64,000 nt of DNA from Triatoma infestans (lineage: Eukaryota > Arthropoda > Insecta > Hemiptera > Reduviidae): the NCBI GenBank assembly GCA_011037195.1, contig JAAEAF010003576.1, forward strand, positions 62,001 to 126,000. The letters are read 5' to 3'. Both the position numbers and the translations under genes were made by a program. Below, one piece after another: positions 1,555 to 58,950 of this stretch (positions within the stretch are counted from its first letter, which is position 1; each line of letters starts with the position of its first letter). A model generated the notes under the pieces. It had not been told where the DNA came from and did no database searches. It saw only the letters and a list, made by a program, of their open reading frames with translations.

Positions 1555-1845
1555 TTAATGTTGAAAATAGATGTTGAAGTTCGGTTATAAAAAAAAACAA
1601 CTCTTTTTAAGCCTTTACCGACGTTTCGGCAAATTTATTGCCTTCTTCAGGGTCTGTACAAAGGTTTTAATACAAATCAGAAAAGAAAAAAAACAACATA
1701 AAACATAAATTTAAAATAAATATTTTCAAATAAAAATTTTTTTAAAATAAACTAAATAAAGAGTCAGTAATAGATCAATAATAAACTACAAAAAGAGTTT
1801 TTTTTTTATGACCAAACCTCAACCTCTATTTTCAACATTGAATAC
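1555..1845. mobile_element. Foldback element with hammerhead motif, family C
   Basis: The ends are inverted copies: 1556-1605 ('ttgaaaatagatgttgaag', then an A-run and 'ctcttttt') and 1793-1841 reversed. A family C hammerhead motif lies just inside the left end on the minus strand (1617-1653). The right arm lacks the second ribozyme, so the palindrome is incomplete. The AT-rich interior ('taaatttaaaataaa' etc.) recurs at 56140-56200 in the other family C element. There is no ORF of note. Confidence 0.6.
1617..1653 (-). ncRNA. Hammerhead-like ribozyme motif, family C
   Basis: On the minus strand: ACC (1653-1651), CUGAAGA (1650-1644), one unpaired A, stem II GGCAA/UUGCC (1642-1638 with 1632-1628) closed by a 5-nt loop, GAAAC (1627-1623), a minimal palindromic stem III ACGU, C17 at 1620, then GGU (1619-1617), which pairs with the leading ACC as stem I. 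All invariant core bases are present. Predicted self-cleavage is between 1620 and 1619. The type I layout with a loopless stem III resembles ribozymes reported in Penelope-like elements. Activity is inferred, not shown. Confidence 0.65.
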
Positions 1846-2444
1846 AACGGTCGTAACAAACACTAAAATATCATTTAATATGAATTAAATTCCTCGAACG
1901 AGGAAAGGTTCCATATTGTCTTATTTCAATGAATTTAATAAACAAATTGGTTTAATTTATTTATTTATTTATTTATTTACGGGTATTATCCAGTTACTAG
2001 ATTAGTATTATAAATTTAATTAAATTTGAAATTAATTATTAACACATAAAGTGTGTTTTATTCAAAATTGCATTCATGATATTTATGACAAAAACATTTA
2101 TATATTTATTTCATTTTAGTAAATATTCTGAACAAATAGAGGACCTATATAGTCGCCAGCTTTGAATTTATAACTCTGTATGAAACTATGGAATTTCAAA
2201 TATTCTTAAATATTGTAAAATTTTATTGAAATATTAATGTTAAAAGGAAAAAAAATCAATTAAATTTTGATTTACTTTATTGAAATAAACTAAACATTAA
2301 ACTAGACATGAGAAAGAATTTGTTACTTAAAATAGGAATTTTTTATTTTGGAAAAATCTCCCTTCGTTTGTCTCTCTTGTAGATATGACCTAGTTGAACT
2401 CTCTACGAAATATCGTAGACTCTTTGAATTCTGTTTTGACTTTC
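1846..2444. other. AT-rich sequence, no feature recognised
   Basis: There are short (TTTA)n runs near 1958-1979. No ORF above noise and no similarity to other parts of the window was noticed. Confidence 0.5.
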
Positions 2445-2550
2445 TTTTTCTATAAGAGAAAGAACTGCGATCATGTTAAATTTTCGATGAGTTTTTTGAC
2501 CAGTATTTTGAAGTCTCTTGAATTCGAAAAAAACCTGCTTTAAGAAAAAT
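2445..2550 (-). repeat. Family R dispersed repeat, 3' end fragment
   Basis: The reverse complement resembles the conserved 3' part of family R: a 'tttttgaattcaagagac' stretch, then 'aaaatttaacatgatcgc', then 'ttctcttatag'. Compare 56030-56130. The fragment is short and diverged. Confidence 0.45.
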
Positions 2551-2805
2551 GAATAGTTTTGCGTATTTATGGGAAAGAGAAATAACGAGGAGTAAAGTTG
2601 AACTTTTTTTTAAAGGCTCACTTGAATATAATATACGGTTCTCACAACTATTTATATCGAGGTTTATTAAACTTCATTGCTATAATTCCAAATGTGAAGT
2701 AAATTGGTTAACCCATAGTGCAACTTTACGAAACTAGAGCCCAGGGTATTGCTTTTTAAGGAAGCATTCACATTGTTTAAGTTGCCAATAATTTTATTTT
2801 TTAGG

Positions 2806-3400
2806 TATCCCTAAAGGAAGTAACCCAGAAACATCAGGTCTGGGGTGCGGAAGGCCACTGAATATGAATATACGTGCTAATCCGTTATGTAGATCCTACT
2901 TACACCGGTAAATGCGATCTAGATAAGTCTTACTGTCCTCGCATTATGAACTGGACATCCATCTTGCTGTGTCTTAAATACACATCATTAGTATGCGTGC
3001 TAGAGTGACATTTTCAAGTTAAGTTGCCATACACATTATTTTTTAGGTATCATCAGAGGAAGCAATCTAGAAGCGTCAGGTCTGGGGAGTAGGCAGGCCA
3101 CTGAATAGGATTGTACGTGCCAATCTCTTATGTAGATCCTATTACACCGGTAAATGCGATCTAGACGTGTCTTACTATCTTCGCTTTATGAACTGGACAC
3201 CCATCTTGCTGTGAAATTGCAATATGTATCATTTGCCTGCGTGCTAGAGCTACATTTTCAAGCAGATCTAGGAGAACTTCACTTAGGAAATGGAGATACC
3301 TGTCTGCGTTCAATGTTACTTTTTAAAATACTGTCCTACAAGTTGATCCTTTATTAGGCCGTACCGTATATTTATCGTAACTATTGTCTAACTCCGTGTC
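2806..3400 (-). pseudogene. IS630/Tc1-type transposase C-terminal fragment with an internal tandem duplication
   Basis: On the minus strand, 3250-3400 reads DRYLHFLSEVLLDLLENVALARR, in two parts: DRYLHFLSEVL and LDLLENVALARR. It continues into SQQDGCPVHKAKIVR (second catalytic Asp region) and WPAYSPDLTLLDCFL (third acidic region), then YLKNNVYGNL. A second copy of the QQDGCPVH-to-GYLKNK segment lies directly downstream (2806-3000, QDGCPVHNARTVRLI ... RTPDLMFLGYF), so ~225 bp has been duplicated head to tail. In-frame stops break both copies. The family looks like the DUF4817-type transposase found again at 39558. The N-terminal DNA-binding part is absent. Confidence 0.65.
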
Positions 3401-3971
3401 CGATAGGTAATATCTGGATTTTTATCTACTCTTATTTTGAAATTCCACCTATTCAATAATCCATTATTCGTAAATTTATATTCACCACTCCATAAAATAT
3501 TTTTTGCTTTATTTGACTACAAAAAAAAAGAAAAGAAGAATAGCAACCAGGAGGCAGAGAATTTGTCTTCATTCAAAATTGATTATCTCAGCAAATATTT
3601 TTCTGGTTCAATAACCATCTTTCTCGTGAAAAAAAAAAAAAAAATCTATTTTAAAAATTCGTTAAAAAAGTTACGTGATAACAAATTTGATAATTTGTTT
3701 CAGAAAATTAAATAAAAAACAAAAAAACAAAAAATTGCATCAGTTAATATCACTCATTTCTATCTTTCTGCAACAGGTTTCATGAATAAAACATACATGC
3801 ATATGACAATAGATGTAATTTTTTTTTTGTCAAAGGCATATATAGTGTCGTTCATAAGCAACAACTTAATTATCAATTAAAACTGGTGAAAGAATGAGAA
3901 ATATTAAAATATACTTCATGGCGACGGCATAAATAAAAGTAAAATTTGGTCAAGGAATTGAAATTTTGGTC
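3401..3971. other. AT-rich sequence, nothing recognised
   Basis: Contains A-rich runs around 3520-3535 and 3629-3642. The 92-aa Lys/Phe/Asn-rich ORF at 3437-3715 has the composition of random AT-rich DNA and no recognisable motif. Confidence 0.5.
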
Positions 3972-4220: not shown

Positions 4221-4224
4221 GTTG

Positions 4225-5850
4225 GTTTCGAAATCTCTGTAAATTTCTGCAGCTTAAAATAAATAATAATTGATCACATTGATAATTTCACAATGATTGC
4301 TTCTCATTCATGACGGGTCGATGCTATTAAAAATCATTCCACTCTTGGTGAGTGGGCCACCGTTTTCCAGGCTGAGGTTTATGCAATTCTTTATGCAATT
4401 TTGGATGAGAGGGTGCGTAACACTAATTTAAAAGGGGTTTGTATCTGCTCGGACAGCCAGGCTGCGTTGAAGGCGCTTAATTCATGTGTCTTCACCTCCA
4501 GATTGGTGTTGGAATGTTCTAGAAGACTGGAAGATCTTTCTTTATTAAAGGATGTGCTTCTGGTCTGGGTTCCAGGTCATATGGGAATCTTTGGGAATGA
4601 GGAGGTGGATAGGTTTGCCAAATTAGGTGCCTCTCTCCCTTTCATTGGTCCAGAGCCTGCTGTTGGTGTGTCTTCTGGCACATGTTTGTCGGGCTTTCAG
4701 ACGTGGATGACCTCACAGCACTCATCCTTATGGATGAGTGCAGTGGGTTGTCGGCAGTCTAAAATGCTCATTGGGGGCCCAGACGGAGCTTTGAGTAGCG
4801 GGGTCCGATGTCTTTCACGGACCTCCCTCAGACATCTGGTTGGATTTCTCACTGGGCATTGTGGTTTAAGGAGACATCTCTATATAATTGGACTCGTGCC
4901 TGACCCCTTTTGTAGAGTTTGTGAGACTGAGGAGGAAACACCCATGCATCTGATGACGAATTGTTTGGGTTGTGAGGAGATTAGGTTTAGGACCTTCGGC
5001 CGGAATAGGATTCGGTAGAGGATCTTAAGCTGTGTCCTTTTAAGGTTTTGGTCCGATTTGTTCGGTCTGTGGTGAAACTTAGATGGTTAAAACCTGGGCC
5101 TGGATTTTCATTCTAGTCCCAGTGGTTGTTATTCTTTAGGGGTAGCTATATGGGCCCTGGGAGGCTTTGGATAGCGTAGGGTTTGCCCTCCCCTTCTGCG
5201 AATAATAATAATAAAAATCATTCCAACCATCGATATCTAGTCGAACAAATAAGACACAAAATTAAAAATATTAAAGAGAAAGGATATCGAATAACAATAG
5301 ACTGGGCAAAGGCTCAGAATGATTTAGTGGGGACTGAAGAAGCGGATAGATTAGCAAAGGAGGTTTATTTTGATGACAGTCTGGAAATAAATTTTATATC
5401 CTAGAACTTTTATTAAAACAAGTCTTTTTGATATGTGCGCTGCGGAAAGTGCAGGAGGGAAAGTGGCAGTTAACACAAAAAGGAGCACAAACAAAGAAAT
5501 ACTTCCATACGGTAGAAGGTAGAATGAGGACATCCATACCTATAACTTACCCGCTAACACAAATACTATCAGGACATGGAGCAGTAAAAGAATATCTCTA
5601 TAAATTTAACATCATCCAATCCAATCCATACTACAAATACAGCCCTACAGTCAGTCAAACTTTTGATCATGTCATCTACGACTGCCCATTGATTGATGAA
5701 TTAAGGATAGATTTCGTAAAATTTTGATTATGTTCGGGTCAAAGTTGGCCACTACCACAAGACCAGATGATTAAACAAGATAATAATAGAAAAATTTCTT
5801 ACGTTTGTTAATGGAATTCTGAATAATGAATGATTTATTCTTAATTTTTG
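4225..5850 (+). pseudogene. I-type LINE 3' remnant (RNase H + C-terminus), split by another LINE
   Basis: The reading frame up to 4341 (VDAIKNHSN) continues after 5225 as HRYLVEQIRHKIKNIKEKG, then WAKAQNDLVGTEEADRLAKE (RNase H last catalytic Asp region). A frameshift leads to LSGHGAVKEYLYKFNI and SQTFDHVIYDCPLIDELR, the C-terminal His/Cys motif. The LINE at 57095-58065 is a close relative (SGHGPNMKYLHRFHL, DVHHVIFDCPLLERSR). The interruption is the LOA-like LINE at 4342-5212. Reverse transcriptase and endonuclease are missing, so this copy is 5' truncated. Confidence 0.7.
4342..5212 (+). mobile_element. LOA/I-group LINE, 5'-truncated copy (RNase H to 3' end)
   Basis: Encodes GEWATVFQAEVYAIL, ICSDSQAALKAL (catalytic Asp) and LLVWVPGHMGIFGNEEVDRF (catalytic Asp), then the C-terminal Cys/His segment PFCRVCETEEETPMHLMTNC. 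The 3' UTR ends 'ggatagcgtagggttt' plus an (AAT)n tail. A 13-bp duplication, AAAAATCATTCCA, flanks it at 4329-4341 and 5213-5225, proving insertion into the surrounding LINE. A long open frame of 205 aa (4401-5018) survives, so this is one of the younger copies. No reverse transcriptase remains. Confidence 0.85.
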
Positions 5851-5879
5851 TTTTATTTAATTATGTTCATATATATGTA

Positions 5880-6189: not shown

Positions 6190-6440
6190 TACGTGGATGA
6201 GTCCCCCAATGCTGGATAACGTCTGAAATTATCCTTCGTAGCATGCATATTTTTTTATTTCTGATCGGTTTCAGATTTTCATCCATCATCAGAGCAAATT
6301 CACCAAGTTCGTGTAGAGAGTTCACTTGCTTGGGAGTTCTCTACACGAACTTAGTGAATTTGCTCTGACATGGATAAAAATCCGATACCTGTCAGGAATA
6401 AAAGAAATCGGCATTTTACGACTGACAAAATACCAATTGA
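6190..6440. mobile_element. Foldback element with paired hammerhead-like motifs, family B
   Basis: Inverted arms meet at ~6332: 'gagcaaattcaccaagttc' and 'gaacttagtgaatttgctc', plus an inner 'ctctacacgaac' repeat. The left motif (minus, ~6292-6263) keeps CUGAUGA, stem II GGAU/AUCU and GAAAC. The right motif (plus, 6365-6397) is damaged: CUGACA with a deletion, and GAUAC. The left end carries the family tail 'tggatgag...ccaatgctgg'. The motifs point outward. Confidence 0.6.
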
Positions 6441-7842: not shown

Positions 7843-10800
7843 TCATATGATTAGTATGGTGTTCAAGTTAGCGGGCAGGGGACAGTCAGTCCTGAGAACA
7901 GCCTTCCACAACCGGTCCCTTCCTTTAGGGTTTTTGTCACATTTCAGGACTATGTGATTGGAATCTGCAATACTTTTAGAGGAACAGGAACAATTTTGAC
8001 CAATGTTTACACCAATTCTGGCCAGGTGATGTGGTGAATAATTATGGTTAAATCTCAACCTGTTTATTGTACTTTGAAATTTTCTATTGGTGTTAGTATA
8101 TTTGGTGAAACAAGGCGTTCTGGGGATACCAGTTTGAATGGTTGTATAAAACTGGCCTTTTATTTGCTTTGACAAGCCATACGCCCTCTCCCATTCGGTA
8201 TAGCTCATAGCTTTAGCATAGTTCTTTATATCAGCGACTAAAAGTGAGTGGGGTGATGTATCTTGTAATGTGATCGCATGCTTGGCTCTTTCGTCCACAA
8301 CTACATTTCCTTTCAGCCCAGTATGCCCTTTAACCCAGATTAAATGGACTGATTTTCCTTTATGTAAGATATTATTCAACAAATGCACTGTTTCTAAAAT
8401 AAGTGAAGTTGCATTATTTAAGGGTTTTTTTAATTTCTGAAGGACACTTTTATTGTCAGAAAGTATTAATACCAGTGATTGGTCTATTGTATCAACATAC
8501 TGTAGACAATGGAATATCGCAAATAGTTCGGCTGTGAATATAGATGCATGCTTATTTAGTTTAAATTGTAAAGTGGTGTTAGTGTGCATGTCGAAGATTG
8601 CACATCCGACACCGTCCTGATTCTTAGAGCCATCTGTAAACAATGATAGCCGTCGGGAAAGTGGCACTGTAACTTGTCAATAAACAATGCATTATTAACC
8701 GCATCTGAGGTGTTTTCTCTGTACTGGAAAAAATCTGCATGTATATTGTCCAGGTTTTTCATTAAGCATAGGACATCAAAGCTGGAAATTGGTAATAATT
8801 TATAGCGTTTTCTTTCTAATGAGAAGTGTGACAGGTTGCTGAATTGGTCTATTAAAATGGGGACTGCCTTCTTGTGCCAGAACTTATCCGTAAATACACG
8901 GGGAGTCATTCTGCTAATCTTTTGAATGCAAGGTTGGCCTTTAATATAAAACCTTTCACTAACAAAGCGTGCAGCCTACAACTTCCTTCTGATTGCCAGA
9001 GGTTGTTGCTTGGCTTCCGCTAAGAGTGCATTAGTTGGGGTGGACCTCAGGGCGCCCAGACATGCTCTCAAGGCTTTGTATTGCAATGTGTCAATTTGTT
9101 TTAGGTGAGTGGCGGCCGCATCTCCATATAGGAAGCACCCATAATCCAGTCTAGCTAAAATTATCTGTTTATAAACCATTAAAGATATTCTAACATCTGC
9201 CCCATAGTTCAGGTGGTTTAATATACCTTAATATATTAATACACTGTTCACACTTTTTTGCTATATACTTAATGTGCTGACTCCAGAGTAGTTTTCCATC
9301 GAGGAACATACCCAATGTTCTCATTACGGGCTCTATTCGTAATTGGAGTCTTCCAATTTTCACTGGTGTAGATTATACCTCCTTTTTCGAGTGAAGATAG
9401 TAATGGTGCTCTTCTCTTCAGATAGCGATAGACCCTTATTAATGCACCAGTCGCTAAATATGTTCATGGCGCTGTCCAGCTTGTTTATTGCTTCCACCAG
9501 TATCTTATCATTGCAATACAATATTATGTCGTCGGCGAATTGAGAGATAAACATTTCCGGTCCTAAGTATTCACCGATGTCTGCTATATAAACATTGAAT
9601 AATAGTGGGGACAATACAGCTCCTTGTGGAAGTCCCACGTGAGTTTGTCGAGGACCATAAAATTTCTCATTGAATTTTACTTTTATGGTGCGCGACGAGA
9701 GGAAGTTGCACACATGGTGGACAATCCTGGAAGGCACGCCAATGGAGATCATCCTGTTTATGAGAATGGGAATGTGGACGTGGTTGTACGCATTAGATAG
9801 GTCAAGGTTCGCAGCGACCATGAACTTACCATCCGTAAAGGATCTGTAAGCGTCCATTACAAAGTTGGTGAAAGAGTCCAGTGTACTGCGCTTTTTCCTG
9901 AAACCGTTTTGGTATGTAGGAAGTTTACTTTCTGATTCAATCCACCACTCCAATCTAGTTTTTATGAGCCTCTCAAATGTTTTTCCTACGCATGACGATA
10001 AGGCAATTGGTCTGTAGGAGTTTTATTTCTCCGCATCTTTTCCCGGCCTTAATAAGGGTACAACTATTTGATTACTCCACTCTTCTATCCTTACCTGTTT
10101 CAATCATATTTCATTCAGAATCCGCAGCAATACCTTTTTACTTGATTCCTCAAGGTGTGTGTGCATTGGGTAGTAGATCATATCTTCACCTGGGGAGGTG
10201 TTTGTATTAGTTTTGAGTGCAAGGAGCAGTTATGGGAACGAGAAAGGTTTATGTAGTTCATGAGGACTGTCTGATATTTCGGGTAGTTGGTATTGCTCGG
10301 GTACTATTTCAGGAGTCAAGGAATTGAGGAATTCTGGGATCCACTCACCAGTAGTCGATTTCACCCTGCGATAGCCATGACTGAGGGCCTTCACGCCACC
10401 CCATATCTCCTTTATTGACGTGTTTCTATTAAATGACGAGCAGAATTCTACCCATTTTTCCTTCTTTTTAGCTCTGTATGTTTTTCGACATAGTGCAATT
10501 AGTCTTTTTGCAATTGATGAAATTCGGCCAAGTAGGCGATTTTTTATAATTTTTAAAAGCTACTATATTATTTTCCTTCAGCCTGTCACACTCCTTATCC
10601 CACCAAGGTTTCGGAGGATATCGCGGTTTATGTCCTAGATACGGTTTATTTGTGGAATAGCCTGATGTGATGCTGTATTTATGATACTTATGAATTTGTT
10701 GTAACTGGCTTCAGCATTCTCCCCTATATCAAATTCCGCCAACAACCTTTCAGTTAACAATGCATAACTATCCCAATCGGCCAGCTTTATATTCCATTTA

Positions 10801-23160: not shown

Positions 23161-23162
23161 AA

Positions 23163-25384: not shown

Positions 25385-25513
25385 TACTGTGTAATAAAAT
25401 AGAGACAAAAAACTGCCAGGACTCTACACGTAAATAGAAATTAGAGATTTAGACTGAGTAAAGAGAAGGATAGTAGTTGGTTGCTGACGCGTTATAACTG
25501 TTGTATAAACATC

Positions 25514-26105
25514 ATCAGTGATATTTTCCATGATAAGCTGCTTCCTTTTGTGGTCATCGACCGGTTTCGGGCGTCCGTCCATCATCAGGATGTTTTCATC
25601 AAACAGTGTAACAAACATGGACTTGCACAGTGAAAATACAGTTGATACACGGGATTTTAAAGTCTGTGTTATGATGGAACTAGGTTAAGAAAAGTATTGC
25701 TACCTGATTGGGGGAAAACACATGTCCGGTCCTTTAAAGACGTTGTTCCCTTTTAAAATAGAAACATCAATTAGTGGGGATGTATAATTAAACTACTTTT
25801 TTTTTGAAGGAGATATTACTTTGATAATTATTTACCCATACCATTTTATTATTTCTATTTATTAATTTATAACAGAGCGAAATAACACGAAAGGTCAGCC
25901 GTGGGCCACTGTGGAATAGTTAGTGATAAGAAATGATAGAATCCAAGCTGAATGGTCGTAAGATAGTATAGATACATAACTATGTTGAGCAAGTAATCTA
26001 TATAAGCAAGTTTATTTTTATGATTATGCATTCCATTCCACATTTCACCTTTCACACACATTCACATACACCATCCACGCATGCACGTAAACTTAAGTAT
26101 GGGTT
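25514..26105. mobile_element. Hammerhead element, family A, left arm only
   Basis: The left-arm sequence matches 42600-42915 ('gataagctgcttcc', the ribozyme, 'caaacagtgtaacaa', 'gggggaaaacacatg'). Further in, 'tgcattccattccacatttc' on this strand is the reverse of the spacer in 42940-43080. The right inverted arm is missing. The 63.6-kb repeat G copy serves as an empty site. Confidence 0.6.
25555..25592 (-). ncRNA. Hammerhead-like ribozyme motif, family A
   Basis: Minus strand: CAUC, CUGAUGA (25588-25582), stem II GGAC/GCCC with one A-C mismatch, GAAAC (25568-25564), palindromic stem III ACCGGU, C17 at 25559, then GAUG pairing with CAUC (stem I). The core is complete; stem II is weakened. 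Confidence 0.55.
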
Positions 26106-27809: not shown

Positions 27810-28768
27810 AAAAAAAAAAAAATCTGGTGTGAAACACTCACATAACTTTCTCTTACTAAAGTTTACAAAATTTTAATTGACAAATTTTATAGTTAGTATA
27901 CCAAATTTAATGAAATTCTTCGGTGTTTTCATGGAGAAAATCGCAAAAATAAAAAAAAACTGTTCAGTAAAAACACATTTCCGGTTTACTAATTTTCATG
28001 GAACTCGGAATTTTTGGCAATCTATTTATTTCTAATAAATTTTGCTTAGATGTAGGATTGTATAAACAATTAAGATATCAGTTTATAGGAAAATATAACC
28101 CCACTCCTCTCCCAAAAGCCCCCTTAAATAACTTTATCTGGAGAAATGTTACAAATAAAAGTTAAAGCTCTTTATATGTATAGTTTACATATATAGCTTA
28201 AAGAAAATCTTTGCAGCTGTTTTAGAGAAAATAGCAGGAAACTGAAAAATACTTCCGGTAAAAACGCATTTCCGGTCATGCGATTTTCTTCCAACATGGA
28301 ATTTCAACAACACATTTAGTTCTAATTAATACTATTTAGATAATAGAATTGTGTAATAATCTGAAATAGCACTTTAGAAGAAACCATAACCCTTCTCTTC
28401 CCCCCAAATGTGCTCTTAAATGAATTTTTCCGGCGATACGTTACAAAGATAAAAGTTGTAGCGCTTTATATGTGTAGTTTATATATCAGATTCAAAGAAA
28501 ATCGTCGGAGCATTTTTGAGAAAATCACAAAAAAATGGAAAAATTATGCAGTAAAGTGATATTTTCTGTTGATGGATTTTGCCGAAATCTTGATGTTTGA
28601 TGCGGTGTGGTGGTTATACTAAGTCTGAGCTTTCTGCAACTTTTCGTATTTGAGATATTTAGGGCCCTCAAAACATGTATTTCCGGTGAAAATTCTAATT
28701 CGGAAATCTGGCAAGATTGCAATACTTTCTCTGGCAATTTATTACTAGTAAGAGATAGTAAAAATATA
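27810..28768 (+). repeat. Family R repeat with internal duplication
   Basis: Begins 'aatctggtgtgaaacactca', runs through 'tttaatgaaattcttcggtg', 'catttccggtttactaattt', 'gaaatgttacaaataaaag', and ends 'ctaattcggaaatctggca' plus 'caatactttctct'. The block from 'agtaaaaacgcatttccgg' to 'acaaagataaaag' occurs twice (27970-28170 and 28250-28460). There is no protein-coding signal in any frame. Confidence 0.65.
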
Positions 28769-28769
28769 T

Positions 28770-29189
28770 ATCTAGGATATTTTCCGTGCTAGCCTGCTTC
28801 TTTTTTTTGGTTATCAACCGGTTTTGTGCGTTCGCCCATTATCAGGATGTTTTTGTCAAAACATGTGATAATATAGACTTGCATAGAGCAAATTTAGTTG
28901 GAACACTGATTTTTAAAAAGTGTTTTTGTTAGGACCTAACTAGGAAACACAAATGTTTCCCACCCAGGTTACAACGAACCTAGTTAGGTCATGACAAAAA
29001 CACTTTTTAACAAATCAGTATTCCAACTAAATTTACTCTATGCATGTCTATGTCATCACACTGTTTTGACAAAAAACATCCTGACGATGTGCGAACGGCC
29101 GAAACTGGTCGATGACCACAAAAAGAAGTAGGCTATCACGGAAAATATCTCTTGATAGTTTCCAGCTCTTCAGAACCAACCACAACAAA
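28770..29189. mobile_element. Palindromic hammerhead element, family A (small)
   Basis: Inverted arms (about 28785-28960 and 28975-29140), e.g. 'acctaactagg' / 'cctagttaggt' and 'catagagcaaatttagttgg' reversed as 'ccaactaaatttactctatg'. Left motif on minus (28852-28812) is damaged (CUGAUAA; GAAA changed). Right motif on plus is nearly intact. The right end has an extra non-palindromic tail, 'tagtttccagctcttcagaa' then 'ccaaccacaac'. An exact 11-bp duplication, TAAAAATATAT, is at 28759-28769 and 29190-29200. Confidence 0.75.
29077..29114 (+). ncRNA. Hammerhead-like ribozyme motif, family A, stem II decayed
   Basis: CAUC (29077-29080), CUGACGA (29081-29087), UGUGC-GAAC-GGCC (two pairs lost), GAAAC (29101-29105), stem III ACU/GGU with a wobble, C17 at 29110, and GAUG (29111-29114) complementary to CAUC. 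Confidence 0.5.
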
Positions 29190-29200
29190 TAAAAATATAT

Positions 29201-30509: not shown

Positions 30510-30640
30510 TTTGAATATGTGGTTGGGTCTGCAATAATGGTGGGGATCACATCTATGGTTTTATCCTTCAATATTTTAGTTCTAAACCGGTTTCCGATTT
30601 TTATCCATCATCAGAGTAGGGTTTACAATCAATTCGTGTT
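30510..30640 (-). mobile_element. Hammerhead element fragment, family B
   Basis: Reading minus: CUCUGAUGA, stem II GGAU/AUCG, GGAAACCGGUU, then 'ggataaaaccatag' and the tail ending in '...cagacccaaccaca'. The core bases CUGAUGA and GAAAC remain. The right arm is absent. Confidence 0.5.
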
Positions 30641-31039
30641 AAGAGATGACTTCTACTATATATTTATAACAGAAACGACACTGGTTAATTTGGAATTTGA
30701 GAAAGTTTGTAATTCTACGTATTTTATAAATGCTTTTATAAGATCTAGCTGCTTTAGAGGATTAAATTAGTAAGTTGTTACCCTGGAAAATGTACTTTAA
30801 AAAAGTCAAATGTTCTAAATATTGAAGAAGCTATCTGCTTCAATAGATGTTCCTTTAGTTCCAATAGATGGTCCTACAGTTTGGCAGTAATGTTTGACAG
30901 TGAAGAAGTATTTAAATGAACCATTTGAAGTTGATATTGATGAAAATGATGAGATAAAATTTTGTGGGCGGCTAAATTTGACATTATCTTTTCTCATCAG
31001 TGGGCTTGGCATTTTGGGTGTAACAACTCCCTTATCTAC

Positions 31040-31110
31040 TAAAGAAATCCTGATGATGGGCGAAACTGTACGATGAACAGGCTATCACCAAAATATAGTT
31101 TATCTAGATG
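31040..31110 (+). mobile_element. Hammerhead element fragment, family A, ribozyme broken
   Basis: 'cctgatgatgggcgaaactg' followed by 'acgatgaacaggctatcacc'. The second strand of stem II and part of the core have been lost by a deletion between the two GAA stretches. Confidence 0.5.
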
Positions 31111-34022: not shown

Positions 34023-35579
34023 TAAGATTAAAGCCTTTTCTTTATTTTGGGGGACAAATATTTTCTAAAAATTCTGAAATAAATTATTTATCTTATAACC
34101 ATAAATCATCTTGATATTTATCTGCTATTAATTTATATATACAGTATCCATCTTAAGTTCTGGATTGACCTCTTGTCTTCGAAAACTGAGACTTTTGGTG
34201 ACAAAAGCAAAAAATATATAATACTTAAAAATGCCCTTTAACACCAGCATGAAGAATTAACGCTATTCTACATTTGAAGGAATCTGTTTATTAATAAATA
34301 CTATCCCTACTTCACAATTCATGAACAATACATCACAATATTTGAGAAGATTTGTATTGTAATCAACATCCTTTCCTGTTAATCGGTTTCCAATTTGAAA
34401 AAAGGAACAATGTTAATAATTGCAATATGACCTTTATTAATATTATTACAGCACATTTCAAATGCTTCCATCAAATGCTCTCTTTATTATTTAATTAATG
34501 CAACCATGACTCTAATCCCTTTTTTGTTATTGCAAAATATCCAAATAAACTTGTTTGTAATGATATTATTCGTCAAAACTTCGGCTATCAAAATAATGAA
34601 GATTTAGAATTATTTTGTCTTGAGATTATTCAACGAAGTTCTATTTATCTTAACTTCTTTCTTCAAAAATGAACTTTCCAAATTTCAAAATAGCCGGTTC
34701 AACTTTTAAAGAAAACTTAAACAAAAACAACGATAATTCCAAAGGTATCTTACATCATAATATTGTGTGCGAATGTGTGCCGTGGGCACAATGTGCAATG
34801 TGCGGACAACATACTGTTTTACGTAGACGTCCTGAAAATGGGGAACCTAGTAGTTGACCAGAAAATGAAGCAGGCTAGCATGAAAAAAAAATCTGTGATA
34901 GTTTATTTGGTTTATTAAGATAATCAAAATATATATATATTTCAAAACGTATCAGAAACTGCGTAATCATCTGTTGATTTCCATTTTTTCCTTCTTGTGC
35001 GCAGAGTCTAACTGAAACAGAAAGTATTAATTGTATTGACATAAAATAAATAGGAAAGAGGAAAGAGAATGTAGTAACATCTCCTTCAATAATGATTAAA
35101 ATAAAGTGAGTGGAAGAAAAGTCGTAATAAAATATACCGCCGCTTGAGGGCATAATAAATTTTTGCATTTTAGTGGAGGTCCAAAGCCCAAATGTTAATA
35201 CTCCTTCAGATGTGATTAATTTTTCGCTGGCCTTATTTATGTAAGCAGCACCTTCAATGCATAAAAATCTATTTAAATAATTTTAATTTAAGAAAAATAG
35301 GCGTCACAAGAAAACATTTTACTTTTTATGTACTCATGATCCTAATTCTCCCAATCCTCTATTAGACACTTTCTTCTTTAAATTTTCCTACTCGCCATCT
35401 TAGACTGTGCTGGCCAAGCAATTTACTTGGCGGTGAAGGTAATAATTAATTCATTTGGAAAGCCACAAATGGGTGGTATCACTCCTCTAATGTCGTCATC
35501 AGTGATGCAATTTACTTGTTGCATCTGCAACTTGTAAACCCATTAAAGTAATAAACAAATTTTAAATAAATCTGATTAG
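34023..35579. other. No gene; decayed family A hammerhead scrap at 34825-34890
   Basis: 'acgtcctgaaaatgggga' followed by 'tagttgaccagaaaatgaag' and 'caggctagcatg' is recognisable family A right-end sequence with a broken ribozyme (CUGAAAA, stem II lost). The rest is AT-rich without features. Confidence 0.4.
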
Positions 35580-41993: not shown

Positions 41994-42637
41994 CTAATTA
42001 AAATCTTTTTTAATGAATTTATACAAATTTTTTAACTCTGGCTGTTTTTATTATTTCTCTGGCAAGCAGTTTTTTCTTATTTCTTTTCCTTAAATATTAT
42101 GAAATCGAAATTTTGTGGCCAGCATTCTATCTTATTGACATCCCAAGTGATTGTTTGGTTTAAGACATTTTTCTTCTAAATTTTATCAATTACCTAAACC
42201 AACCCACATTTAAGTTTAATAATTTCTTTGACCAAAAAAAGTAGTACGGTTCGCGTCACTCAAAATGAGCAGTCCCATTACATAATCAAAATGTAATAAT
42301 AGGGAAAAATAAACTAAATACTGTGCTTAATTTGGGGTATTGTAAAGACAATTTAAAAAAGTTTTTTAACAAAAAATGTCAGTATTTTTTTCTATTTCTT
42401 CAAATCTCTTATAATCTCCCAAACCTGAAGAGCCCCCTAGCAAATTGTTGATGTGATCTCCGATTGGAAAACTCTATATTTTGAATGCAATGTAATTCTT
42501 TTTGTAAGAAGGAAGTTTTTCTAAATTTCGTTGTTTCTCATTTTCGCTAGTTTAGATTTCACAATATATAGTTCTATCATCAACATATATACTAATATCA
42601 GAGACATTTTCCGTGGTAGGCTGCTTCATTTTGTGGT

Positions 42638-42675
42638 CATCGACCGGTTTCGGGCGTTTGCCCATCTTCAGGATA
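42638..42675 (-). ncRNA. Hammerhead-like ribozyme motif, family A, intact core
   Basis: Minus strand: UAUC (42675-42672), CUGAAGA (42671-42665), U, stem II GGGC/GCCC with AAAC loop, GAAAC (42651-42647), stem III ACCGGU, C17 at 42642, GAUG (42641-42638). Stem I GAUG/UAUC keeps pairing through a G-U wobble relative to the other copies. Confidence 0.7.
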
Positions 42676-43435
42676 CGTTTTTTCAGACAGTGTGACAACA
42701 CAGACTTATACAGAGCAAACTTTGTTTTCACACTGACTGGTTTAACTGTATTTAAAACTAAACTCTTAAACTAGGTCAAGGGGTATAGTCAGCTGGGTGG
42801 GAAAACACATGTTTGGTTTGTTAAAGGGCAAATTTTCCTTATAATGGACACACCACGTGATGGTCTAATTTTTAAACTCTGTTGATGGAGGGAGATTTAC
42901 TTTACAATAAGTGTGCATATTTGGATGATGTATGATGTATGTGAATGTTGTGTAAAAAAGGTGATATGTTGGAGTGGAATGCATAATAAAAAAACTTAAT
43001 TATATAAGAAACCATATTTAGGTATACATGCTTGCGAGGATGTGAATGTTGTGTGTGAAAAAGTGAAATAATGAATGGAATGCATAGTTATAAAATACTT
43101 AATTATAAAAATCGCTTAATTTTAAATGATGTTAGTTTAAATCGTTATTTAATTTAATTTAAATTTATTTTATATATTTTATATTTTATTTTGGTTAGGT
43201 AATTGTAAAGTAAATCTCCCTCCATCAACAGAGTTTAAAAATTAGACCCCCACGTGTTGTGTCCATTGTAAGGAAAATTTGCCCTTTAACAACCTAAACA
43301 CGTGTTTTCCCACCCAGCTGACCATACCCCTAGGCGTAGTTTAAGAGTTTAGTTTTAAATACAGTTAAACCAGTCAGTGTGAAAAACAAAGTTTGCTCTG
43401 TACAAGTCTGTGTTGTCACACTGTCTGAAAAAACG

Positions 43436-43473
43436 CATCCTGAAGATGGGCGAACGCCCGAAACCGGTCGATG
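43436..43473 (+). ncRNA. Hammerhead-like ribozyme motif, family A, intact
   Basis: CAUC (43436-43439), CUGAAGA (43440-43446), U, stem II GGGC (43448-43451) / GCCC (43456-43459) with loop GAAC, GAA (43460-43462), stem III ACC/GGU (43463-43468, palindromic, no loop), C17 at 43469, GAUG (43470-43473). Stem I CAUC/GAUG pairs fully. Predicted cleavage 43469/43470 would leave a ~75-nt 3' piece containing the element's tail. Confidence 0.75.
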
Positions 43474-43557
43474 ACCACAAAATGAAGCAGGCTACCACGG
43501 AAAATGTCTCTGATGTTTTCCAGGTCTGCGGAACCAACCATCACTATATACTAATAT

Positions 43558-44112
43558 ATGTAATCACTTGCTGGAATTCCAAATTTAGATAACAATCGAT
43601 TAACTGGTAGTGCATATTTTGAGAGTAGATTTCCCAGTCTTTTGGAGTTTTCTTAAAAAAAAAAAAAAAAAAAATATGGTCTCTGAAACTTTTCTTTAAA
43701 CTTGATGGTTGTTATACAGATTTAAGCTCATTACTTTCATCTGAAACATTTTTGTCCGTGGATTCATAGAAATCCATGAGATAAGCTTAATTTCAACTGA
43801 AATTGAGTCGTTATGTTCCGGTCATTAAGTTTTGTATAGGGCTAATGGATGAAACCTCGTCTGCCCTACAAATATCTTTACATTCAGATAAACCGTATGT
43901 TCTAAAATCCATCAACTATAATTATAGTAATATTTCACTAAACGTTTCACCATCATATTTGTAACAAAGGTATAGTAAAAATTCTTAGTTTAAGTATGTA
44001 ATAATATGTAATTAATAATAATGATTAATATGTAATTAATAATATGTAATAATTACGTTGTGAGAAAGTCGTGTGGAAAAAACTTTGGAGGGGGCAAATG
44101 AGGTCTTTAATC
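43558..44112. other. No feature recognised
   Basis: AT-rich with an A-run at ~43655-43673 and short 'taattaataatatgtaat' repeats near 44000-44055. Confidence 0.4.
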
Positions 44113-44543
44113 GTTGAAAATGTGGATGGATCTGCAATGCTGGATAACATCTGGGATTTTATCCGTCGTAGCATGCATATTTATAGTATTTCTAACCGGT
44201 TTCGGATTTTCATCCATCTTAAGAGCAAATTCTTGTAGAGAATTCACTTCAACCTAATGTTTCTGTTACACTCACACTTGTTGGTTGTATATATGTGGGA
44301 AGGTTATAAGGTTATGTTACTATTTATAATAATTCCACCTTGTCATTAAACACAACACATTGTAACATAACCTTATAACCTCCCCGCATATGTACAACCA
44401 ACAAGTGTGAGTGCAATAGAAACATTAAGTTGAAGTGAACAACTCTCTACACAAATTTGGTGAATTTGCTCTGACGATGGATGAAAATCCGAATCCGATT
44501 AGGAAAACTATAAATCTGCATGCTAAGACGAATAAAATACCAG
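44113..44543. mobile_element. Palindromic hammerhead element, family B
   Basis: Inverted arms of ~130 bp or more, e.g. 'gtaacataaccttataacct' against 'aggttataaggttatgttac', with further pairs outward to the ribozymes. Left motif (minus, ~44226-44194): stem II GGAU-GAAA-AUCC perfect, GAAACCGGUU, but CUUAAGA in place of CUGANGA. Right motif (plus, 44471-44503): CUGACGA and GGAU-GAAA-AUCC intact, GAAAC changed to GAAUC. The left end carries the tail 'tggatggatctgcaatgctgg' split here as tggatggatc + tgcaatgctgg. An imperfect 15-bp duplication (13/15), ATGAGGTCTTTAATC / ATGAGATCTTTAGTC, is at 44098-44112 and 44544-44558. Confidence 0.75.
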
Positions 44544-44558
44544 ATGAGATCTTTAGTC

Positions 44559-47050: not shown

Positions 47051-47053
47051 TGA

Positions 47054-47255
47054 ATATGTGGATGGGTTCTCCATACTGGATAACAACTGGGATTTTATCC
47101 ATCGCATTGATGCTGTTCCTGACCGGTTTCGGATTTTCATCCATCGTCATAGTAAAGATCAAATTCGTGTAGAAATTTTGACTGACTTGTTGTTTTCGTT
47201 ACCAATACACTTATTGATATGCGGGGGAGGTTATAAGGTTGATAAAATCCCAGAT
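47054..47255 (-). mobile_element. Hammerhead element, family B, most of right arm deleted
   Basis: Contains the left tail ('tggatgggttctccatactgg'-like, 47058-47080), the ribozyme on minus (stem II GGAU-GAAA-AUCC, GAAACCGGUC intact, but AUGACGA replaces CUGACGA), part of the inner arm ('gatatgcgggggaggttata'), then abruptly the far-right segment 'gataaaatcccag'. This is a palindrome collapsed by deletion. Confidence 0.6.
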
Positions 47256-47489: not shown

Positions 47490-48005
47490 AGCTGGGTGTG
47501 TTAAAATGGTAGTAGGTTATAAATTCAACATTAACCAATAGATCGAATGGCCAATAATAAAACAAGCTGGGCATGTTAAAATGATAATACGTTAAAATTC
47601 AACTTTAACCAATAATCCAATGGCCAGTAATAGTACTAGTTGGTATGTTAAAATGATAGTAGGTTATAAATTCAACTTTAACCAATAGATCACGATTGGC
47701 CAGTAATGAACTAGTAGGTATGTTAAAATGGTAGTAGGTTATAAATTCAACACTAACCAATTGAACGAATGGCTATTAATAGAACAAGTTGGTGTGTTAA
47801 AATGGTAGTAGATTATAAATTCAACTTTAACCATTAGATCGAATGGCCAGTAATAGAACAAGTTGGTATGTTAAAATGGTAGTAGATTATAAATTCAACT
47901 TTAACCAATAGATCGAATGGCCAGTAATAGAACTAGTAGGCATGTTGAAATGGTAGTAGGTTATAAATTCAACTTTAACCAATAGATCGAATGGCTAGTA
48001 ATTAC
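47490..48005 (+). repeat. Minisatellite, ~74-bp unit, about 7 copies
   Basis: The unit runs 'gttaaaatggtagtaggtta' - 'taaattcaactttaaccaat' - 'agatcgaatggccagtaata' - 'gaactagttggtat'. Units start near 47499, 47574, 47647, 47718, 47794, 47870 and 47943 with 5-15% differences. It stops at 'ggctagtaatt', about 80 bp before the Helitron. Confidence 0.9.
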
Positions 48006-50606: not shown

Positions 50607-50832
50607 TACTACTGCAAAGGAAAATATTACGATCATGTAAAATTTTCGAAATAGCGTTTTTATGGAAATTCCAGTTTTGAGGTCCACTAAGGTAGAATTT
50701 TTTTTTTTTTTTTTTTGAGCGATGGTCTGTTCGTGTGTGTGGCTCTGTATTTGCTTGTATGTTAATATAACTATATCGGTAACGTGATAGTATTGTGTAG
50801 CTCAGAGTTGAATTTTATCCGTCTGTTTATTG
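50607..50832 (-). repeat. Left copy of direct repeat flanking a LINE (family R-like 3' end)
   Basis: Shares with 53023-53268 'ctgcaaaggaaaatattacg', 'ttttcgaaatagcg', 'gaggtccactaaggtagaa', a long T-run, 'gcgatggtctgtt', 'gtatttgcttgtatgttaa' and 'gaattttatccgtctgttt'. The first half resembles the reversed 3' end of family R ('cggaaatttccatgaaaac'-like). Confidence 0.75.
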
Positions 50833-53022
50833 CAAATCCCTAATGGTCGGATCAAATCGGCTGTCACTATGATATTTAAGAAAGGCGATAAAAATGACCC
50901 ACAAAACTATCGACCAATAGCCTTGTTAAATTCTATCCTCAAAATATTTACCCAAATTATTTTGAAAAGATTGGTTATATGGAGTGAAGAAAACTCCGCT
51001 CTCCCTGAAAGCCAATGTGGCTTTCGAAGAGAACGATCTTGCTTAGACAACTTGTTCCTTCTAAACGGTGTAGTCCAAATGAAATTAGGATATTATCGTC
51101 AATCTGACCTGTTTGTAATTTTGATTGATTACAAACAGGCTTTTGACAGTATAAATCACAATCTTCTCTGGGATAAGCTGTATCAAATTGGAATTAGCAT
51201 AAAATCATAATACTTTTAAAAAACCTATATGAAAAAGCAACTATAATGGTGAAATGCAATGGAATCCTGTCAATGGGTCGTGATAACAAAAGGAGTCCTC
51301 CAAGGGGAAGTATTATCCGGCTTTCTTTTCAGCTTATATATAAGCGATATGGAAGACTTTTTTAGATCGAGAGGAGCTTCCGGAATACCCTTGGCTGGGA
51401 ATAAAGATGTTCTGGTCTCTCTATACGCAGACGATAAAGCCTTATTCGCTGACTCTCCTTCAGATGTGAGCAAAAAATTGGAGTTGCTTGCTCTGTACGC
51501 CAAAACAAACCATTTAACTGTTAACAGCTCTAAAACAAAAATTTTACATTTTCAAAAGGGTAGGGCTAAAAAAGTTAAAAAATTTTACTATTTTGGCCAA
51601 GAGCTGCAAGTTATGACCACCTACACTTATTTAGGAATTCCATTTTCATCCTCAGGCTTATTTTATAGAGCTGCCAAATTTGCTGAGGCTAAAGCGTCCT
51701 CTGCTAATGGTGCAGTTTTAACTATCTGCAGGAAATCTAAAATAAGATCATGGGATAGTCGTGTTAAATTAAATAATTCGATAAGCTTGAGCTGCCTTTT
51801 ATATGGAATCGAAATATGGGGACTACGTTACACTGACACAGTTGAAAAGGCTCATATAAATTTTTTTAAACGATTGCTCAACTTAAATAAAACATCCCTT
51901 CCTGGTTAATAAGGCTGGAGTTTGGTGGACAACATTCACTGTATAGAATTATCAAACAAACCTTAAACTGGGTAGTCAGAATACTTTCAATGGATGATAA
52001 AAGATTAACTAAAATTTGTTTTCTCAAATTAAAGCAGTTACACACCAATCGACAGCTAATCAAATTCAACTGGTTCTCTCAGCTAAATAATATCTTGTCT
52101 AAGTTTAACGATCAGTCTGTCTTGCTTGAAAATGATCCAGATAAATTTAAGAGAGGAATTGCCAAAACGCTGAATCTGCTTAATGAGCACCTGAAAACCA
52201 AAGATGTTGAACATTTAATAACGGAAATTACAGCCCATATTATAACCAGTTTTTTGATCCCAAATACTACACAAATAGTTGTGTAAACTTAAATTTACGT
52301 TTTTGTATCCTAAAGATCTTTTGTCAGTTACGGTTGTCTGGTAAATATCAAATTAAAATTACTTTCAATAGCTTAACGTATATTATCAAGGCCCAAGAAA
52401 TATGTACACTGTGTAATTTAAATGTTTTGGAAACTTTATATCATGTTGTTGTAGCATGTCTGGTGTACTCGGCAATACGAGATCGCTACATACCTTTTGT
52501 TAAAGATATGTCTCTCGAACAGTTCCCATCTGTATTTATTTTAAGTGATTGTAATCAAATAAAACAGCTAGCGCTGTTTGTCATAAACTGCCTTAAAGCA
52601 CGATCGTTTGCATTAAATGAATAATTTATTTTTAAGTCTTATATCCTAGACTGCCCCCACTGCACTGTAAATAAGTTAATACATTTATAGTTGTTCAAAA
52701 CTGGTATGCACTTCCAACTCTTTAAAATTTGTCTTGATTTACAATACATGCGAATAAAATACTTATTTGACAAAACAAAATAATCTTTATATTATTATTT
52801 TTGTAACTCACTTTTATGTAGGAAATAACATTTTGCTTTATATTTACTTTCACATGTGAAAACCTTGTTTTATTTCCTTTTTGGCTTCATTTGAATCTAT
52901 GTTATTTTTATATCTATGCATATGTATCTTTTGTCTTGTCTGTATATTATATTATGTTATAGCCAACTCCATTTATATTTGTATGGGGTATTTCCCCAAA
53001 GGGAAATTAAAAATAAATATAC
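50833..53022 (+). pseudogene. LINE reverse transcriptase to 3' end, flanked by long direct repeats
   Basis: Starts within the reverse transcriptase: TMIFKKGDKNDPQNYRPIAL, FRRERSCLDNLFL, VILIDYKQAFDSINHNLLWD. A frameshift follows, then VLQGEVLSGFLFSLYISDME and LVSLYADDKALFADSPSDV (active-site YADD intact), LTVNSSKTKILHFQKG, TYTYLGIPFSSSG and INFFKRLLNLNKTSLPG. Further on: NWVVRILSMDDKRLTKICFL, ICTLCNLNVLETLYHVVVAC (C..C...H...C motif) and LFVINCLKARSFALNE. The endonuclease and N-terminus are absent. I cannot assign the clade with confidence. The 3' end near 53022 has no long poly(A). Confidence 0.8.
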
Positions 53023-55549: not shown

Positions 55550-55584
<35 letters not shown>

Positions 55585-56135: not shown

Positions 56136-56139
56136 AAAA

Positions 56140-56790
56140 ACACGTAAATATAAATTTAAAATAAAAATTTTCAAACAAAAAATTTAAATAAACTAATGTG
56201 AAACATTCACACAACATAATAAACTAAATAAAAGATACTATTAAACTAAACTAAATAATTAGATAAAATTATTATATACTTATAGCAAATTGAAATTTAT
56301 TTTAAAGCATTGCTATTATTACAGAAAAAATCAGAAATAAACTACATCTCAACTAATAAAATTTAAACAATATGTGGTATTTATAAGATTGAAATATAGA
56401 AATCTAACATAAGAAGTTTACTTACAGAAAATTTTCCTGTTTGAATTTCTTAAAAACTACAGATTAACTTGTTGTATACTATCACCAAGGGTTATGAAAA
56501 TAGGGTGTGTCCAGGTTTATATAGGGCCTAGGAGAGCGGATAGGAAAACCGTCATATTGGGTATATTGTTTAGGAAATTCCAGGAGACTGTAATAACTGA
56601 GGAGGGATAGGTTATTGGTATTTGTTCTAAAATTGATAGGTAATTTATCTTTTTTAATCATTTCCTTTGTACAGACCCTGAAGAAGGCAATAAATTTGGC
56701 GAAACATCGGTGAAAATTTGAAAAAAGAGGTTATTTTTACTGAACCTCAATATCCTCTTTACAGTATAATAAATAACCTTTACAGTATAA
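56140..56790. mobile_element. Hammerhead element, family C, left ribozyme missing
   Basis: 56150-56260 matches the interior of the 1555-1845 element ('tataaatttaaaataaa'). The right end carries the plus-strand ribozyme and then 'gaaaaaagaggttatttt', like the outer arm of the 1.6-kb element. The left arm is not recognisable, as expected of a 5'-truncated copy. Confidence 0.5.
56675..56711 (+). ncRNA. Hammerhead-like ribozyme motif, family C
   Basis: ACC (56675-56677), CUGAAGA (56678-56684), A, stem II GGCAA/UUGGC (one G-G mismatch), GAAAC (56701-56705), stem III ACAU (one pair weakened), C17 at 56708, GGU (56709-56711) pairing with ACC. Confidence 0.55.
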
Positions 56791-58170: not shown

Positions 58171-58720
58171 AGAAAGAAATAATTTAATCCCTTTTAAATT
58201 CCATCAAAATACACCTTGAATAAATTATTTTTCTATTTAATATATTAAACTTAGCTACCTATAATTAATTTGTCGTCTCAAAATTAATGTAAAACACATT
58301 TTAGCCTAATTCTTGTTGCGGCTTAAATTATATCTGTTTCGAGAAGTCACCTAATGTCAGGATAGTTAATAGGACAGCTTAAATATATTAACATTCGCCA
58401 TTTACAGATTGTACTACAAATTTAATAGCTGCTATATAATTTGATTATAATTGACTCCCATATAATTTATATCTCTATAATATTCCCTTTCGTGCCCAAT
58501 TTCGTACATTATCTGAATTTAAGATTTTTAATTACATCTTATTAACATCAGACCAAACATTTTTTTTCATTGACTCTTTTGATTGTTTAACAATGGTAAT
58601 ATACCATAATACGTTAAAATATAGATATTCTATTTCTGACTGTATGGCTGTGCTATATAGTAAAAACTGGGACATTAATAATTTCTGTTTTTTTTTTTAT
58701 ATATCTTAGTTTATCAAGTT
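58171..58720. other. No feature recognised
   Basis: AT-rich sequence up to the target-site duplication of the next element. Confidence 0.4.
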
Positions 58721-58820
58721 ATAAGCTATATTCTGATGTATCTCTTAGTTGGCTGATCGGCCAGGGGGTATCATAAGAAAAACACTAAAAAAAATTTTTT
58801 TAAAGTGTTTTTTATTAATG

Positions 58821-58861
58821 GCCCGACGTTTCGAGAAACATTGTTTGTCTTCTTCAGGGGC
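58821..58861 (-). ncRNA. Hammerhead-like ribozyme motif, family C (left)
   Basis: Minus strand: GCCC (58861-58858), CUGAAGA (58857-58851), A, stem II GACAAAC/GUUUCUC (one C-C mismatch), GAAAC (58832-58828), stem III ACGU, C17 at 58825, GGGC (58824-58821) pairing with GCCC. Confidence 0.65.
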
Positions 58862-58909
58862 TATCTTAGAATCGGAAATTTAGTTAATATAAATTTAAGT
58901 TTCTATGAT

Positions 58910-58950
58910 GCCCCTGAAGAAGACAAACAATGTTTGTCGAAACGTCGGGC
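58910..58950 (+). ncRNA. Hammerhead-like ribozyme motif, family C (right), intact
   Basis: GCCC (58910-58913), CUGAAGA (58914-58920), A, stem II GACAAAC (58922-58928) / GUUUGUC (58932-58938), seven perfect pairs with an AAU loop; GAAAC (58939-58943); stem III ACGU (58942-58945, palindromic); C17 at 58946; GGGC (58947-58950) pairing with GCCC as stem I. All invariant bases are present. Confidence 0.75.

Follow-up and report, generated by a model that had tools for sequence, protein, structure and literature searches.

This article concerns a 64,000-nucleotide stretch of the Triatoma infestans genome (contig JAAEAF010003576.1, positions 62,001 to 126,000), hereafter the window, and the small motifs resembling hammerhead ribozymes that are scattered through it. 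The motifs fall into families, named A, B and C, and lie in the arms of what are likely Penelope-like elements (PLEs), most of the copies in the window being arranged as outward-pointing inverted pairs. Many truncated copies of family A begin exactly at the bond where the fold is predicted to cut, and it is because of this that we think self-cleavage of the RNA by the fold is likely in the animal.

Motifs and elements in the window

A strict core pattern, CTGANGA-N(4-30)-GAAAC, scanned over the whole window, matches 14 times, against a mean of 0.74 and a maximum of 5 in 100 shuffles. Eleven of the 14 are among the 17 places that an initial annotation of this DNA had named as hammerhead-like; the other three are at 6784, 24641 and 29158. 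All 17 places were read, nine of them on the minus strand, and the claim of repeated motifs stands. So does the statement that ten copies keep the full core, once the copy at 31050 is excluded for its deleted stem II. Stem II is paired at all four positions in five of the ten (1623, 6268, 42647, 43440 and 58914), at three of four in another four (25564, 30590, 56678 and 58828) and at two of four in the copy at 29081. The motif is abundant beyond the window. A descriptor scan of 264 kb, made up of the window and 200 kb tiled from one contig, gave 34 pattern matches, 21 of them with at least three pairs in stem II; the reversed sequence gave 1 and 0. A family-A 25-mer finds 7,861 + 7,753 = 15,614 exact cores in the 941-Mb genome, and the reversed pattern finds none.

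To these patterns we added a covariance model built from 11 family-A and family-B copies, three of them from the window. It finds 11 window places at E < 1e-5, including the partly core-less ones at 28804, 44182, 44461, 6355 and 47111. Weaker matches fall at 31040 (E 0.047; a family-A remnant on the plus strand, 31040..31083, with stem II deleted), at 60271 (E 0.14, absent from the initial annotation) and at 1608 (E 0.54). The last belongs to a motif of the family we call Ca, at 1606..1660 on the minus strand, with stem I ACC/GGU, an extra A and stem II GGCAA/UUGCC. The place at 34831 gave no match in the window scan; we read 34810..34899, on the plus strand, as a family-A remnant without a recognisable core.

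Element A1 (42586..43557) is an inverted PLE dimer bounded by a 13-bp target duplication, TATATACTAATAT, at 42586-42598 and 43545-43557. Its arms, 42594-42908 and 43202-43517, are 94.6% alike, the left without and the right with a tail (the tails are taken up below). The right arm carries an intact family-A motif at 43430..43481 on the plus strand (79.2 bits and E 1.8e-18 under the covariance model), with stem I CAUC/GAUG, an extra U, stem II GGGC/GCCC, the palindrome ACCGGU, an ATG at 43446 and a predicted cut after 43469. The left-arm motif, 42630..42681 on the minus strand, keeps the strict core (E 3.5e-17). A second dimer, A2 (28759..29200), has the target duplication TAAAAATATAT, a left arm without a tail and a right arm with one; its motifs are at 28804-28855 (minus strand, degraded) and 29071-29122 (plus strand, two of four stem II pairs). 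A single family-A arm without a tail lies at 25509..25636 on the minus strand, its motif at 25547-25598 (E 5.4e-15).

In family B, the inverted dimer B1 (44098..44555) is flanked by a 12-bp target duplication with one mismatch (ATGAGGTCTTTA / ATGAGATCTTTA); its left arm has a tail, its right arm has none, and both motifs, 44182-44233 (minus) and 44461-44512 (plus), are degraded. The inverted pair B2 (6193..6440) likewise has a left arm with a tail and a right arm without, the right one missed by a stricter arm search; its motifs are at 6251-6302 (minus) and 6355-6405 (plus, degraded), and a target duplication looked for at its flanks was not found. Two single arms, each with a tail and on the minus strand, lie at 30511..30673 (motif 30574-30625, E 3.6e-6) and 47051..47177 (degraded motif 47111-47154, E 2e-8). 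Family C supplies the dimer C1 (58720..59087), with a 13-bp target duplication, TATAAGCTATATT, at 58720-58732 and 59075-59087, no tail on the left arm and a tail on the right. An intact motif at 58904..58960 on the plus strand has stem I GCCC/GGGC, an extra A, stem II GACAAAC/GUUUGUC, the palindrome ACGU and a predicted cut after 58946; the left-arm motif, 58828..58857 on the minus strand, has one stem II mismatch. So does a further Ca motif at 56678..56705 on the plus strand.

The fold and its extra residue

The motifs have the type I hammerhead core, CUGANGA ... GAAA ... UH, with an open stem I. What they lack is a stem III of several pairs. In its place the intact copies have only the palindromes ACCGGU or ACGU, the tiny palindromic stem that had been proposed for them, and this fits PLE variants acting as dimers. 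It may also bear on the failure of the test that the initial annotation had set beforehand, a match to the hammerhead models of Rfam: in the search of the window no family reached threshold, and no hammerhead model appeared at E up to 10. We read the putative cause as models that expect a real stem III, which is absent from these variants.

The comparison took in seven families: A, C1 and Ca from the window, B (a window family, here from a copy in L011; loci outside the window carry an L and a number), D (L029), E (L001) and F (L010). Standard pairs occupy 53 of 56 stem cells, against 34 on average and 45 at most when partners are shuffled, none of 20,000 shuffles having reached 53. Families A, B and C had been preselected by the initial annotation with both stems in view, and E and F were found with a stem II filter. 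Stem I of D, E and F was touched by no search or filter and is for that reason a clean covariation test; it is paired at 12 of 12 positions. All four Watson-Crick pair types occur at stem II position 3, and across 11 related family-A and family-B copies 96.6% of cells pair, compared with 23-41% when the partner is slid. The claim that compensatory changes mark a selected structure thus holds between families. It does not hold for single copies in the window, most of which are decaying debris, the structure being kept at the level of the source elements. Several have decayed without compensation, as is expected of dead copies.

All seven families have one extra residue between A9 and stem II, as do all ten full-core window copies; in the 264-kb sample, exactly one extra base follows A9 in 16 of the 21 matches that passed the stem II filter. 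This departs from the standard hammerhead, although an extra residue after A9 is tolerated in some viroid hammerheads. In families A and B the extra base is a U which, with A9 before it and the first G of stem II after it, makes an ATG at the head of a reading frame. Translated by hand, the frames begin MGERPKPVDD... and MDENPKPVRN..., N-terminal peptides similar enough that we take A and B to be relatives. The start codon was rejected as the sole reason for the extra residue, since in families C to F the residue is an A and makes no ATG; in the family-D element at L029 the frame opens some 120 nt beyond the cut. A start codon sits in the catalytic core both here, in an arthropod, and in a lizard, and the overlap may therefore be old.

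Probable Penelope-like carriers

A profile search of the genome gave at least 38 GIY-YIG matches at E up to 0.001, and four of these places were fetched. One, L029, holds an open frame of 809 codons with RVT_1 (29.3 bits, just under the Pfam cut-off of 29.6) and GIY-YIG (28.1 bits, cut-off 22.6) domains; 16 relatives of the protein were listed, two of them with insect names, Coccinella and Vollenhovia. Direct repeats of the kind known as pseudo-LTRs (pseudo-long terminal repeats) flank the frame at 319-752 and 3334-3766 and are 97.9% alike, with an inverted arm at 155-309 on the left and a T-rich target duplication of 13 bp. This is the layout of a PLE, to which an optional tail of 30-40 bp also belongs. 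The motif is present in both pseudo-LTRs and in the inverted arm; the 3' copy differs by a single base, at the foot of stem II. This element bears out the initial annotation in its link to Penelope-like elements: the carriers of the motif are likely PLEs, and the repeats likely their pseudo-LTRs.

Two further observations belong here. At L030:2630-3801 a GIY-YIG place lies beside a 390-bp inverted repeat in which a pattern search finds no hammerhead core, possibly a PLE family without a ribozyme. A conserved hairpin at the sites where complementary DNA (cDNA) would start was also considered; with z scores of -2.1 and -2.2 (A, B), -1.4 (C) and 0.5 (D), we do not claim one.

Truncated arms at the predicted cut

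If cut RNA serves as a template, the cDNA should run off at element position +24, the first base after the predicted cut in family A. We looked for truncated arms genome-wide, in family A only, with a pattern of six non-consensus bases followed by 24 consensus bases. Raw starts numbered 26 at +23, 109 at +24, 40 at +25, 35 at +26 and 85 at +28. At +23, +25 and +28 many rows are full copies with a small indel, and a filter was applied that drops rows whose upstream six bases match the element at five or six places. The counts then became 8 at +23, 71 at +24 (among 100 of the 109, which were listed), 25 at +25, 22 at +26 and 20 at +28; distinct filtered prefixes numbered 8, 54 (among the same 100 of 109), 19, 20 and 20. 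With a broader pattern, the best 100 of 392 places included 25 at +24 and 7 to 23 at other positions; after filtering, those 100 left 21 of 59 at +24, with the positions from +25 to +30 holding 3 to 11 apiece. A control over +12 to +18 (best 100 of 169 places) was flat, with 5 to 13 of 61 filtered rows at each position. The design of the pattern favours the first bin about 1.33-fold. P values that allow for this, and assume a flat background, are about 1e-10 for the raw counts (+23 to +26), 1e-6 for distinct filtered prefixes (+23 to +25) and 0.001 for the 59 filtered rows of the broader pattern.

Twenty +24 loci were fetched, and 17 proved to be true truncations, the other three being indels or decayed copies. 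Of ten pairs chosen for having one +24 arm, four (L075, L076, L080 and L081) have a partner that also starts exactly at +24. Each of these four insertions is made of two stubs, one running from 24 to about 69 and the other from 24 to 98; the filler that joins them measures 14-20 bp in three cases and 186 bp in the fourth. None of the 78 paired arms in the pair survey described below starts at exactly 24 (aligned start), the spot loci of that survey having been picked by intact core, so that one arm per such locus could not. The bond 43469/43470, which the initial annotation had predicted from the fold, is the bond where family-A truncations pile up, and the piling up of cDNA ends at +24 makes self-cleavage there in vivo likely.

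Two details of these rows deserve a place of their own. Seven filtered +24 rows, L090 among them, share the prefix TTTTGT, which is a junction with the opposite arm near +31 and may be a preferred joining site. In a copy at L038:654-796 the 24 bases that separate two GATG repeats are precisely deleted, and with them the ATG, stem II and the cut site.

Transcription start at +24 remains the main rival. Here the copies would be PLE debris with a fold inactive in vivo, and the excess would mark a transcription start just inside the frame. Such truncation needs only RNAs that begin at +24, and in the available text of a study of a lizard PLE no reads end at the presumptive cut (PMC11167929). Yet the base was fixed by the hammerhead rule before anything was counted, so a start site on that exact base by chance is unlikely, and both A subfamilies (T or A at +37) contribute to the excess, with 47 and 24 of the 71 filtered rows listed. 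We regard the idea as improbable, if the least so of the alternatives.

A step further down we place an origin in the copying or decay of the DNA: stops of the enzyme at RNA structure, the loss of DNA between short repeats (the core and +24 both have a GATG), or the onward copying of a few scars. One GATG-type deletion does exist, at L038; three of the 20 fetched loci were indels or decayed copies; TTTTGT heads 7 of the 71 filtered rows listed, with ATAACT and GTAACT also recurring; and L073 and L086 share upstream sequence. Against this, a stop at stem I is expected at +28, before its 3' strand, where the filtered count is 20 versus 71 at +24 (100 of 109 listed), and the first letter of the pattern excludes an unmutated deletion product. 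Seventeen of the 20 loci that were fetched hold up as true truncations, and their upstream sequences include one pair that is alike; distinct prefixes still peak at +24 by the counts given above. An artefact of this kind seems to us quite unlikely.

Inverted pairs with one tail

Family-A arms end outward at two sites, at about +70 after ATG (AAATGTCTCTGAT) and at about +98 (AACCAACCACCACAAC), and family-B arms end at the matching two places. We surveyed pairs in the window, the tiles and the spot loci, taking arms that extend past +40 and leaving out duplicates (L004-L006) and the element loci (L029-L032). Of 39 inverted pairs, 38 have exactly one tail, a result with a probability of 7e-11 were each pair to do so at one half. 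Eleven of 11 further readable pairs also have mixed tails, as do C1 and L029, which brings the count to 51 of 52 (B2, another mixed pair, is excluded because the survey missed it). In these 51, one arm ends about 30 nt further out than its partner, and such unequal ends fit two separate cDNAs. Target duplications score at least 8 in 32 of the 39 pairs, compared with 27 of 760 mismatched flanks, and are about 10-15 bp long in most. Single arms number 14 with a tail and 23 without, a tally that includes three units of one tandem array, fragments and edge-cut arms.

The inner ends of the arms vary independently of each other. In six of the 39 pairs (L011, L012, L033, L036, L062 and L064) neither arm contains the other, by at least 40 nt: the arm with the tail reaches further outward, and the other reaches at least 40 nt further inward. 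This bears directly on a model put forward for rotifer PLEs, in which a single cDNA, or a single antisense RNA, folds back and is copied into an inverted pair; head-to-head inverted copies with palindromic junctions are reported there and, in the available text, read as self-priming (PMC3846280). Fold-back copying needs one arm to lie inside the other. Because the arms of the six pairs are mutually non-contained, neither was copied from its partner, and for these pairs the process is ruled out; as a general account of the pairs it is about as doubtful as the artefacts considered above. That the pairs are miniature DNA transposons with terminal inverted repeats, an idea invited by arms of up to 316 bp that are 94.6% alike, we reject as very improbable indeed, since the outer ends differ between arms, the target duplications vary in length and sequence, the arms are truncated independently, a reading frame begins within the arms of A and B, and the one full-length carrier of the motif encodes reverse transcriptase and GIY-YIG.

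PLE tails are already known. The addition here is a near-absolute rule of one tail per insertion, together with independent truncation of the arms. At L022:5194-5498 there is a different arrangement, in which five family-B units of about 56 bp stand in direct tandem, each beginning near the GAAAC core and stopping at the inner end site; it looks as though the enzyme had returned to one start site again and again. Sub-threshold microRNA matches (MIR7127, mir-965 and mir-5984) at 28897-29027, 44288-44394 and 6296-6361 fall on the hairpin centres of inverted PLE pairs, which are a likely source of false microRNA calls.

A probable cut that leaves a scar

Our reading, to which we give a probability of roughly 0.7, is that the motifs are minimal type I hammerhead-like folds in likely PLE pseudo-LTRs, that the RNA likely cuts itself in the animal, and that the paired copies are truncated insertions which reverse transcriptase likely built from two cDNAs, one per target strand. 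The PLE protein would nick both strands of the target, and each nick would prime a cDNA on PLE RNA, as the purified lizard protein does, with one RNA start site used per target strand. Those start sites would lie about 46 and about 74 nt downstream of the cut, so that a template already cut there could yield only stubs of those lengths; cleavage upstream of the start pad would thus make stub insertions. Self-cleavage would sever the start pad from the cargo and, in A and B, remove the start codon as well. A ribozyme that cuts off its own start pad likely limits or times insertion and does not help its own copy. By the same mechanism, cleavage and productive insertion of one unit would exclude each other, which would fit the lizard PLE, for which the available text has unprocessed RNA as the main template and ribozyme cleavage dependent on the PLE protein (PMC11167929).

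A stronger form of the idea is, for us, an even wager. The hammerhead would be a cut-off switch in the animal: two enzyme units start cDNA at two fixed sites, prior cleavage turns the product into a runoff scar of about 46-nt and 74-nt stubs with neither ribozyme nor start codon, and each independent scar is the fossil of one cleavage, so that activity in vivo could be read from any genome by counting scars.

A number of points weigh against our reading. Transcription starting at +24 would leave identical scars. In the available text on the lizard PLE, ribozyme mutants left insertion unchanged and no RNA-seq reads ended at the cut (PMC11167929). The +24 excess is about 3-fold over its neighbours, of which 1.33-fold comes from the pattern design alone, and it is seen in family A only; the same test gave 0 matches in family D and 3 in family B, too few to inform. 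The raw count at +28 (85) is near that at +24 (109), and only the indel filter separates them. L073 and L086 share 57 of 60 upstream bases (L073:207-266, L086:200-259) and not their downstream flanks, as though the scar had been duplicated along with the DNA joined to it, so some scars have been copied on and not all are independent. Most family-A copies, with 15,614 exact cores in the genome, come from templates that were not cut there. Among the 52 pairs there is one exception, L071, in which both arms lack a tail and there is no target duplication. Two of five covariation measures in the 11 family-A and family-B copies are not above shuffles (91 and 417 of 500), and folding energies are moderately low, with z of -1.6 (A), -2.9 (C), -0.4 (D) and -1.5 (E). 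Finally, no full-length A, B or C element was among the four of 38 GIY-YIG places fetched; with no such copy seen, these families are assigned to PLEs by the anatomy that they share with D and by the plan published for PLEs.

PLE hammerheads were known, one lizard PLE was already reported to have the start-codon overlap, and the copies in the window are debris. Of interest to specialists would be the DNA record of cleavage and the two-start rule, both of which can be checked in any genome. Whether PLE hammerheads cut in vivo had been an open question, and scars at the cleavage site bear on it: with a scar at the predicted bond, any genome that has been sequenced can be asked if these ribozymes fire, with what frequency and in which families. 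The rule of one tail per insertion (51 of 52) constrains PLE integration to two cDNAs and two start sites, likely one per strand. No report of PLE truncations at a ribozyme cut was found in the literature searched, which did not cover the two founding PLE-hammerhead papers, so absence is not established. The initial annotation had the fold and the PLE link right; it missed the extra residue, the start-codon overlap, the inverted pairs with target duplications and the pile-up of truncations.

Other features of the window

By eye, open frames at 4314-5018, 7843-10022, 36483-36944, 48969-49301 and 50812-52624 resemble LINE (long interspersed nuclear element) reverse transcriptase and RNase H, a mariner transposase and a Helitron-type helicase. 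A 74-bp tandem repeat of about 7 copies lies at 47495-48002.

Comparison with known systems

Minimal type I hammerheads in PLEs were reportedly described by Cervera and de la Pena in 2014 and by Lunse, Weinberg and Breaker in 2017. In the hammerhead of a chrysanthemum viroid, according to work attributed to De la Pena and Flores in 2001, A9 and stem II are likewise separated by an additional nucleotide; here the extra residue is found in all seven PLE-type families, and in two of them it is a U that forms the middle base of a start codon. In the available texts of three further papers, PLE hammerheads are minimal type I ribozymes with thousands of copies, located in pseudo-LTRs and thought to act as dimers (PMC7229834, PMC7761336, PMC6155905). 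The motifs described here are like them in having a core without a proper stem III, in their thousands of copies and in their location in pseudo-LTRs.

Metazoan retrozymes are also non-autonomous and have type I hammerheads, according to the available parts of two of those papers (PMC7229834, PMC7761336). Their repeats, of about 150-350 bp, stand in tandem and yield circular RNAs, whereas the copies here are inverted dimers or single arms, with cDNA start sites that lie downstream of the cut. They are not arrays of small tandem repeats that each carry a motif, and we rejected retrozyme identity.

The Penelope elements of the rotifer Adineta vaga resemble the copies here, with inverted pseudo-LTRs, target duplications (8-10 bp in the rotifer) and a tail on one inverted pseudo-LTR (31 bp and optional in the rotifer) reported in the available text (PMC3846280). 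That paper, which never uses the word hammerhead, favours self-priming; here, arms that are unequal and not contained in one another fit two separate cDNAs.

A further comparison is with PAc, a Poseidon PLE of Anolis, for which the available text describes cleavage of both strands with extension, two internal start sites, a tail tied to those two cDNA start sites and a reading frame that begins at stem II (PMC11167929). Two differences stand out. No RNA ends at the cut were seen for PAc in that text, whereas here it is cDNA that ends there. And in vitro no strand difference was observed in the PAc start site, whereas in Triatoma infestans nearly every insertion pairs one of each.

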